In this document: positions 19,968 to 23,463 of the stretch, piece by piece | How the letters are laid out: each line of letters opens with the position of its first letter | How positions within the stretch are numbered: the first letter of the stretch is position 1 | Source: Bradyrhizobiaceae bacterium | GTDB taxonomy: Bacteria; Pseudomonadota; Alphaproteobacteria; Rhizobiales; Xanthobacteraceae | Direction of reading: 5' to 3' | NCBI GenBank assembly: GCA_947481685.1 | Contig: CANKHA010000001.1 | Coordinates: 62,001-126,000 of the forward strand | DNA length: 64,000 nucleotides | Made by a program: the position numbers and the translations under genes | Notes under the pieces: model-generated | Databases searched by the model: none | Told to the model about the DNA's origin: nothing | Seen by the model: the letters and a program-made list of their open reading frames with translations, nothing else

Positions 19968-20420
19968 TTAGTCGGTGCCGGTCGAGCCGAATCCGGACCC
20001 GCCCCGGCTGGTGTCGTCCAGCGTTTGCGCTTCCGACAGGGCGGCGTGCGTCACGGGCGCGACGATCATCTGCGCGATGCGCTCGCCGCGTTTCACCACA
20101 AACGGCGCGTTGCCGAGATTGATCAGGATCACCTGGATCTCGCCGCGATAATCCGCATCGATGGTACCCGGCGAATTCAGCACGGTGACGCCGTGCTTTG
20201 CTGCGAGTCCCGATCGTGGCCTCACCTGCGCCTCGGTGCCTGCCGAGAGTGCGATCGCAATGCCGGTCGGAACCAGCGCGCGTTTGCCCGGCGCAATCAT
20301 GACGTCCGTGCTGACGGCTGCGAGCAGATCGAGGCCTGCGGCCTGCGCGCTTTGATACGCCGGGAGCGGCAAATCGGCGCCGTGCGGCAGCCGCATCACT
20401 TTCACTTCGACCAAGCTCAT
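19968..20420 (-). CDS. dut: Deoxyuridine 5'-triphosphate nucleotidohydrolase
   Basis: Trimeric dUTPase that hydrolyses dUTP to dUMP and pyrophosphate, keeping uracil out of DNA. All five family motifs are visible in 150 residues: [46 protein letters not shown] and the C-terminal arm [10 protein letters not shown]. It overlaps the coaBC stop by four bases; the dut-coaBC pairing is common in proteobacteria. Confidence 0.97.
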
Positions 20421-21820
20421 TTTTTCTTTTCCAGCGCCTGCACCACCCGCGCGATCAGGCTTTTCGCGACCTGATCCTTACTCTGCGGCGGCCAGGATTC
20501 TACACCGGAAGCGGTGACGAGGTGCACGGTATTACGGTCGCCGCCGAACACGCCGCTTTCCGGCGACACGTCGTTGGCGACAATCCAGTCGCAGCCTTTT
20601 TTTGCCAGCTTTTCCTTCGCATGTTGAATGACCTGCTCGGTCTCCGCGGCGAAGCCGATCACAAGAGCAGGGCGCTTGCTGGCGCTCTTTGCTACTGTAG
20701 CGAGGATGTCGGGATTCTCCGTGAGCGCAAGCGGCGGTGCCTGCCCGCTGCCTTTCTTGATCTTCTGGTTCTGCGTTTCGACAACGCGCCAGTCCGCAAC
20801 CGCGGCGGCAAAGATCGCGATATCGGCGGGTAACGCCTTCTCTACGGCGGCCAGCATTTCCCGTGCACTCTCGATCCGGATCACGCTGACGCCGGATGGA
20901 TCGGGCAGCGCCACCGGGCCTGTCACCAGCACGACTTCTGCGCCTTGCGCCGCCGCCGCCGCCGCAATCGCGTGGCCCTGCTTGCCCGACGAGCGGTTGC
21001 CGATGAAACGCACCGGATCGATGGGTTCGTAGGTGGGTCCGGAGGTCACGATCACGCGCTTGCCCGCCAGCGGGCGCTGCGCTTTCGGCTTCGCCAGCAG
21101 GCCTTCCAGCGCCGCAACAATCTCCAGCGGCTCCGCCATGCGGCCGACGCCATGCTCGCCGCGCTCGGCCATCTCGCCCTGATTGGGGCCGATAAAGGCG
21201 ATGCCGTCGCTGCGAAGCTGCGTGAGATTGCGCTGGGTGGCGGCGTTGCTCCACATGCGTGGGTTCATCGCCGGTGCGAGCAGCACTCTCTTGTCGGTCG
21301 CCAGCAGCACAGCCGTGGCGAGATCGTCAGCGTGCCCGTTGGCGATCTTGGCCATCAGGTCGGCGGTGGCGGGGGCGACCACGATCAGATTGGCCTCGCG
21401 GGACAGGCGGATGTGTCCGACGTCGAATTCGCTGTCAGAGTCGAACAGGTCGGTGAAAACCTTGTCCCCGGAGATCGCGCCGGCCGCGAGCGGCGTTACG
21501 AATTGCTGCGCAGCATTTGTCATCACCACCCGTACCCCAAAGCCGCGCTCGCGCAGGCGGCGGATCAGGTCGAGGGATTTATAGGCTGCGATGCCACCGC
21601 CGATGATCAGCAGGATGCGGCGGGTGGCGGTCTCGGTGCGGGGCGGGGCACCTGGCAATCCGGCGCTTTCCGGTGGGGAAGCGGGAGCATCGACGTCGGA
21701 TGCGGCGCTCCTCAGGATCGCCCGAACCTCCTCCTCCATGGAGCGGCGGTTTCGGGCGGCACGCCGCCGAAGCTGCTCCTTGAGGGCGTCGTCTAGCTGG
21801 CGGACGGTGAGGCTGGCCAT
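20417..21820 (-). CDS. coaBC: CoaBC (PPC decarboxylase/PPC synthetase) with an N-terminal ribbon-helix-helix domain
   Basis: Makes 4'-phosphopantetheine from phosphopantothenate in two steps for coenzyme A. Residues about 68-245 are the flavin decarboxylase ([14 protein letters not shown], His136 in VGHIRLS, Asn186 in APAMNPRMW) and the rest is the synthetase ([25 protein letters not shown]). The cysteine expected near position 219-220 (E. coli Cys158) is Glu-Arg. Residues 1-40 form an added FitA/Arc-like ribbon-helix-helix segment, [14 protein letters not shown] to EEEVRAILR, the DNA-binding fold of antitoxins. ATG 21820 is preferred; ATG 21832 is in frame four codons earlier. No clear ribosome site decides between them. 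Confidence 0.92.
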
Positions 21821-21829
21821 GTTGCGCAG

Positions 21830-21870
21830 CATAATGCAGGCGTTGATATCAATGCAATCATAATGCTGGG
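21830..21870. promoter_or_regulatory. Candidate operator: paired CATAATGC repeats around a TTGATATCAA palindrome
   Basis: CATAATGCAGG (21830-21840) is repeated as CATAATGCTGG (21859-21869), 29 bases apart, and the perfect palindrome TTGATATCAA (21843-21852) lies between them. The block sits directly at the 5' end of coaBC, whose product starts with a ribbon-helix-helix DNA-binding segment; such proteins often bind short paired sites at their own promoter. That link is an inference. Confidence 0.4.
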
Positions 21871-21891
21871 CAACATTGTAATTTAGACGGC

Positions 21892-23463
21892 TTAAAATGC
21901 CTTCAGAACCACCCAAAGGAGCAGAACTGCAATCACCCAGATACCCCGGGTGATCCACCGATTGCGGTGGGCTTCAGCCTCGCCGATGGCGGCCACGGTT
22001 TCCGGATCGAGCTTGAGCCCGTCGCGTGTGGCGTCGTCGAGCTGGTCGAGCACAGTGCCTGCGCGTGTCAGCAGAGTGGGCACCCTGCCGATAAAGCGAC
22101 CGATTTCGCCGGCGCCTTCCGCCGCACCCTCGATCCGGCCAAGCGGACCGAGATTGCGCTCGATCCATTCCCGCACGACTGGCTCGGCCGTTTTCCACAT
22201 GTCGAGCTTGGGATCGAGCGAACGGCCGACGCCTTCCACCACCACCATGGTCTTCTGCAGCAGCAGCAACTCCGGCCGTGTCCGCATGTCGAACAGCGCG
22301 GTGACCTCAAACAGCAGCGTCAGCAGGCGCGCCATGGAAATGTCTTCAGCGGCGCGGTTGTGGATCGGCTCGCCGATGGCGCGGATCGCCTGGGCGAAAT
22401 CCTCCACCGAATGATGCCGCGGTACATAGCCCGCCTCGAAATGCACTTCCGCCGTGCGGTAGTAATCGCGGGTGATGAAGCCGTACAGAATCTCGGCCAG
22501 GAAACGTCGCTCCTTCGGGCCGAGACGCCCCATGATGCCGAAGTCCACGGCCACCAGGCGCGCCTCGTCATCGACGAACAGATTTCCCGGATGCATGTCG
22601 GCATGGAAGAAGCCGTCGCGCAGCGCGTGGCGCAGGAAACTCTGGATCACCGTGCGCCCGAGCAGCGGCAAGTCGAAACCCTTGGCCTCGAGCATGGCCC
22701 GGTCGTTGAGCGGCGTGCCGTCGATCCATTCCAGCGTCAGCACTTCGCGCGCGGTACGGTCCCAATCCACTGTCGGCACGCGGAAACCCGGATCGTCTTT
22801 GGTGTTCTCGGTCAGCTCCGACAGCGCGGCGGCCTCCAGCCGCAGATCCATTTCGAGCCGCACCGAGCGCGCGAGGATATCGACCACTTCGATCAGCCTC
22901 AGACGGCGGCCTTCGGAAGACATTCCCTCGCCCTTGCGGGCGGCAAAGTAGAACGCATCGAGGTCGGCCTTGAAGCGCCGCTCGATTCCGGGCCGCAACA
23001 CTTTCACCGCCACCGCGCGCGGACCGCTCTCGGTCATGACTTCGGCGCGATGCACCTGCGCGATTGAGGCCGCCGCCACCGGCGGGCCGAAGCTGGTGAA
23101 GGCTGCTTTGACGGGCTTGTCCAGCGCCGCCGCAACGGTTGCTTCCGCCTCGCTCTGCGAGAACGGCGGCATGCGGTCCTGCAGGCTTTCCAGTTCGCGC
23201 GCGACCCGGGCCCCAACGACATCAGGCCGCGTTGCAAGGAATTGGCCGAGCTTCACATAGGTCGGACCGAGTTCGGTCAGCGCGGTGGCAAGCCGTCCGT
23301 CGCTGCTCGCGGTCCGCGGCCGCTCGATCAGCCGCGCCAACCGAAGTCCCAAACGAGCGGGCGCCGGCAGCATCAAAGGATCGACCATCGCGAACACGCC
23401 TTCGCGCGCGAACACGAAGCCCGCGCGGGCGAGGCGAACGAGGTGAGAAACCGAAGAGATCAC
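21892..23463 (-). CDS. ubiB: UbiB, ABC1/ADCK-family atypical kinase for ubiquinone synthesis
   Basis: Membrane-associated ATPase of the UbiB family needed for ubiquinone biosynthesis. The family motifs are [11 protein letters not shown] (KxGQ), an Ala-rich loop AASIAQVH, the lysine in [19 protein letters not shown] and VDFGIMG. A C-terminal hydrophobic stretch ([14 protein letters not shown]) is a membrane anchor. The 523-residue length is normal. It overlaps the ubiE stop by four bases, so the pair is probably co-translated. Confidence 0.94.

Follow-up and report, generated by a model that had tools for sequence, protein, structure and literature searches.

The window (the whole 64,000-nucleotide stretch analysed, from Bradyrhizobiaceae bacterium assembly GCA_947481685.1) contains a coaBC gene on the minus strand at 20417..21820. 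It encodes 467 amino acids followed by a stop codon, in the frame read from the ATG at 21820. This is the sole coaBC match in its genome, and the fused enzyme is therefore presumably active, as judged from sequence. A gene which we take to be ubiB lies upstream on the same strand (21892..23463), its stop falling 71 nt before the coaBC start. The next gene, also on the minus strand (19968..20420), is dut by look, with dUTPase motifs recognisable by eye. Its start overlaps the coaBC stop in the letters ATGA (20417-20420), and because of the overlap of its ATG with that stop the dut-like gene may share the control of coaBC, so that any autoregulation may extend to dut. A predicted operator is found between the presumed ubiB and coaBC, at 21844..21860.

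A ribbon-helix-helix domain at the N-terminus of CoaBC

The original prediction placed a FitA-type ribbon-helix-helix (RHH) head before a full CoaBC, and the Pfam domains bear this out. Residues 2-40 (21701..21817, minus strand) belong to the FitA-like RHH family (PF22513); the match covers positions 1-39 of the 39 in the profile and scores 59.8 bits, above the curated cut-off of 27. It is followed by a variable linker, predicted to be disordered, at about residues 41-67 (21620..21700, minus). The CoaC part (Flavoprotein, PF02441, 110 bits) spans residues 68-237 (21110..21619, minus) and the CoaB part (DFP, PF04127, 244 bits) residues 251-435 (20516..21070, minus). Both Pfam and alignment to the Mycobacterium smegmatis CoaBC structure 6tgv place the two catalytic domains on one chain. 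The latter is the closest solved structure for the catalytic part (E-value 1.4e-79); gonococcal FitA (2h1o) was reached by the RHH part only at an E-value of 0.86, in a single-sequence search.

The AlphaFold monomer of the fused protein has a mean pLDDT of 78.9, with helices at residues 11-23 and 28-40; the linker comes out disordered, its pLDDT falling below 50 at residues 43-64. Residues 2-7 are helical in this model, where a strand is expected in an RHH dimer; the model is thus uninformative on dimerisation. The CoaC clamp (window positions 21140-21178) contains no cysteine, and the same is true of 23 aligned fused proteins. A cysteine is present at the corresponding place in Escherichia coli Dfp; mycobacterial CoaBC also lacks the clamp cysteine.

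The RHH domain is under purifying selection. In 152 close pairs drawn from 40 loci, the RHH has a dN/dS of 0.121, the catalytic core one of 0.092 and the linker one of 0.373. The pairs were restricted to 86-97.5% identity and are not mutually independent; they include no very close relative of the window, for which the nearest fused protein found has an identity of about 72%. Nine RHH residues are invariant in 33 sequences: M1, T5, R7, L9, A22, R26, S27, E29 and R33. A true coaBC start downstream of the RHH segment is disfavoured by this conservation and by the codon constraint. An ATG at 21832, four codons earlier, is a possible alternative start; the relatives, in contrast, align from MASLT.

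The predicted operator and its boxes in relatives

The predicted operator, TGATTGCATTGATATCA (21844..21860, minus strand), is a conserved sequence element of two TGNNNNCA boxes 9 bp apart, TGATTGCA at 21853-21860 and TGATATCA at 21844-21851, which end 23 nt before the start codon. We take the half-site of gonococcal FitA to resemble the TGNNNNCA boxes. A 17-bp matrix built from 70 of 76 loci, with the window excluded from training, gives this site 28.4 bits, the top score in the 64 kb; the next separate site scores 12.9. The same matrix gives at most 3.0 bits in the upstream regions of coaBC genes that have no RHH.

An operator at the start of coaBC had been suggested from another feature, a pair of CATAATGC repeats 29 bases apart around TTGATATCAA. 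The pair exists (one match, 0 in 100 shuffles) and reads on the strand of the gene as a direct repeat of GCATTATG (21830..21866, minus). It is not conserved: of 101 other fused genes, none has GCATTATG in the 130 nt that precede it, and we rejected the pair as the operator. What survives of the suggestion is the place, since boxes specific to RHH-bearing genes lie just before the start, together with the conservation of the RHH itself. The predicted operator overlaps TTGATATCAA, and its TGATTGCA box had not been named. A sigma-70 scan of 21780-22000 found no promoter-like site, and there is no more than a hint of a layout common to relatives; a claim for a coaBC promoter was dropped.

In fused genes the half-sites TGATTGCA, TGATAGCA and TGATATCA occur in the short gap after the presumed ubiB. 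Of 77 RHH-bearing coaBC loci, 68 have at least one of five half-sites in the 90 nt upstream; of 48 RHH-less loci, none has. The first set is de-duplicated, obtained by excluding L108 (truncated) and L028, L033 and L055 (separate RHH), and then near-copies. The second counts L133, whose RHH is in another frame, and L147, whose RHH is a separate gene, and becomes 0 of 46 when both are removed. Nine RHH-bearing loci are without the five half-sites. Other TGNNNNCA boxes are present in three of them (L008, L009 and L124), four have sites farther upstream than 90 nt (L005, L010, L019 and L097) and in L027 a site precedes the start by 55 nt. In L095, 420 nt of upstream sequence contain no exact half-site. 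L005, L019, L095 and L097 have longer gaps between boxes and start (180-293 nt from the ubiB stop), in which inverted repeats such as GGCCGGG...CCCGGCC can be seen by eye; the leader looks as though it had been invaded by a repeat element.

The pattern TGN4CANTGN4CA occurs at 105 sites in 10,010 bp of RHH-bearing upstream sequence. Background sequence has 17 such sites in 898,995 bp, and the 48 RHH-less upstream regions have none. Three phylogenetically independent pairs on starred branches agree with the association between boxes and RHH, too few for significance. We rejected a strict 17-bp palindrome as a description of the site. The two arms of the 17-mer show no covariation beyond shuffles (129 of 264 inner pairs complementary, against a mean of 122) and TGNNNNCA boxes repeat at a spacing of 9 nt (103 pairs), and we therefore call the element an array of TGNNNNCA boxes.

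The strict pattern TGATNNCAWTGNNATCA has a single match in the genome (3.26 Mb), at the predicted coaBC operator. A search of 49 genomes gave 12 sites within the window's family, spread over 11 genomes, nine of the sites at coaBC and two before standalone RHH/PIN loci, and the reversed control has none in the 49 genomes searched; outside the family at least 9 sites were found in 7 of 19 genomes searched. These counts bear on the reading that the RHH controls other genes as well as, or instead of, coaBC. The looser TGN4CANTGN4CA points that way, with 41 matches in this genome against 26 for its reversed control. However, the strict pattern is unique and lies at coaBC, and four of the better loose matches, inspected out of 40 elsewhere in the genome, all fall inside open reading frames (269-692 codons). 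We regard a wider regulator as very unlikely.

Distribution of the fusion and traces of a toxin-antitoxin module

Of the 81 genomes searched for coaBC, 49 belong to the window's family. The 46 readable loci in this family comprise 28 with the fusion, three with a separate RHH gene just upstream and 15 without RHH; one genome (G034) gave no coaBC match and two (G004 and G047) gave fragments only. No RHH was found at coaBC in the 24 loci read from the 32 genomes of other families. Among 80 named loci 71 are fused, one of these truncated, a proportion that is no frequency as the loci were picked for likeness to fused proteins; they include Bradyrhizobium, Rhodopseudomonas, Nitrobacter, Afipia, Pseudolabrys, Phyllobacterium, Mesorhizobium, Zhengella and Brucella haematophila.

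In an order-wide search of 219 genomes, among the matches listed, residue 1 or 2 was reached in eight of nine genomes of the window's family and in two genomes of a second family (f24), of which six loci were read, four fused and two not. A class-wide search of 144 genomes, a set that holds of this order just the window's own genome and one other, gave a match that begins at residue 1 and spans both RHH and CoaC in the own genome only. The fusion is present in two Hyphomicrobiales lineages, Xanthobacteraceae-type and Rhizobiaceae-type. Within one genus (g107; genomes G238, G172 and G114) coaBC carries two different RHH heads (L155, and L156 from G238) or none (L151), and because of this the head may have been swapped or regained there.

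It is unlikely, in our judgement, that the RHH has no function now and is tolerated as an N-terminal remnant of an inserted module. The variable linker is consistent with such a remnant, and so are the 15 of 46 readable family loci that do without the domain. Against it, dN/dS in the RHH lies near that of the catalytic core, and the boxes have been retained before RHH-bearing genes in both lineages.

Several relatives carry toxin-antitoxin genes in the gap between the presumed ubiB and coaBC. The pair is complete in L055, with RHH antitoxin and PIN toxin (PF01850, 44.1 bits), and so is the RHH and PIN pair (47.5 bits) of L147, which belongs to the Rhizobiaceae-type lineage. In L028 and L033 a separate RHH is followed by an apparent shortened toxin; the remnant in L028 matches the L055 toxin weakly (E-value 0.003), and that in L033 is weak and was recognised by eye. 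The Rhizobiaceae-type fusion L156 aligns to L147, with an L147-like antitoxin head and tail-like sequence in its linker. Such sequence was found only in L156; elsewhere the antitoxin-tail region is the variable linker, with its dN/dS of 0.373. The gap in L029 contains frames that resemble, by eye, a fragment of a RelE/HigB-type toxin and its antitoxin. The modules complete in L055 and L147 and decayed in L028 and L033, together with the frames of L029, make the gap look like a site of entry for toxin-antitoxin modules. In L018, which has no RHH, an upstream frame contains IEEIVPPW, faintly like the FitB end (GLDIIDPW in L055), and this is perhaps a locus that lost its module.

Boxes accompany only some of the unfused antitoxins, which speaks against the proposed operator. 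Tandem boxes lie within 110 nt of only three of 11 standalone fitAB-like loci of relatives, one of which (L162) has the exact 17-mer of the window. Among separate RHH genes beside coaBC they are present in L033 and L147, and there are none in L028 and L055. The intermediate loci suggest that an RHH/PIN module of the FitAB type formerly stood between ubiB and coaBC, that the toxin gene was lost, and that coaBC would then have gained the DNA-binding domain of the antitoxin by in-frame fusion, along with the operator of the module. In a tree of the CoaBC core, in which many branches are weak, the Rhizobiaceae-type fusions fall in a starred clade separate from the fusions of Xanthobacteraceae type, and the fused state requires 10 changes. 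The antitoxin domain was probably captured two or more times; a single early capture followed by many losses is possible, if less likely.

Descent from an antitoxin family, and the full module at the same place in relatives, could also mean that RHH-CoaBC still works as an antitoxin, or that it tethers a toxin complex to DNA. However, the window's own genome, 97% complete, has no PIN match (PF01850) at an E-value of 0.01 or below, and there is no conservation in the linker, the expected place of a toxin-binding tail. No FitA-like RHH besides that of CoaBC was found in this genome either. A continuing antitoxin role is very unlikely.

Proposed autorepression and known systems

We favour autorepression, and think it likely that a captured FitA-type antitoxin domain and its operator make CoaBC repress its own transcription. 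CoaBC would bind the TGNNNNCA boxes before its own start through RHH dimers, a DNA-binding activity predicted from the domain and the sites. The bound protein would repress coaBC, with 21844-21860 as its only predicted target, and perhaps also dut, in the manner of PutA, and a signal, putatively one related to CoA, would release it from DNA.

Mycobacterial CoaBC is described in PMC7794376 as a dodecamer inhibited by CoA thioesters, properties which could supply both a release signal and several RHH dimers per particle. A more elaborate form of the proposal, which we put forward as doubtful, is that CoaBC is a trigger enzyme that arose by repeated domestication of antitoxins, separately in the two lineages. 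The RHH dimers of the oligomer would grip the array of boxes, and CoA thioesters or the state of assembly would set the strength of the grip.

A full-text search of open papers yielded none joining CoaBC or phosphopantothenoylcysteine decarboxylase with ribbon-helix-helix, and none joining Bradyrhizobium, phosphopantothenate and antitoxin. The main text of a 2009 toxin-antitoxin survey (PMC2701414) contains neither 'flavoprotein' nor 'pantothen'. The fused architecture may already be listed in automatic domain databases.

If the autorepression is real, CoaBC would join PutA as a second flavoenzyme whose fused RHH represses the gene that encodes it, and would do so in an essential cofactor pathway. 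The relatives display the likely stages, from complete module through toxin loss to fusion, by which a selfish toxin-antitoxin pair would become a housekeeping regulator. Should the trigger-enzyme form also hold, a transcriptional feedback loop for CoA synthesis would have been built from the remains of a selfish module. The prediction is concrete, with one 17-bp site and one protein, and covers cultured Bradyrhizobium, Rhodopseudomonas, Mesorhizobium and Phyllobacterium.

Three known systems invite comparison. PutA is a trifunctional proline utilisation flavoenzyme whose N-terminal RHH represses its own regulon (PMC5293562). CoaBC resembles it as a flavoenzyme with an RHH at its N-terminus and, at the level of sequence, in the specific sites before its own gene. 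It differs in its other catalytic domains and pathway, and in having an RHH of the FitA type with antitoxin ancestry; any switching of CoaBC by a ligand is putative. FitA binds its own operator through its RHH, as PMC3920265 and PMC3384007 describe. The RHH of CoaBC is of the same family, and box-type sites precede 3 of 11 standalone fitAB loci, one of them identical to that of the window. Unlike FitA, CoaBC has no toxin, and its RHH is part of a housekeeping enzyme. Ordinary CoaBC (Dfp), represented by the M. smegmatis structure 6tgv, shares the CoaC and CoaB domains with the fused protein, but the match begins at residue 64 and the mycobacterial chain has no RHH.
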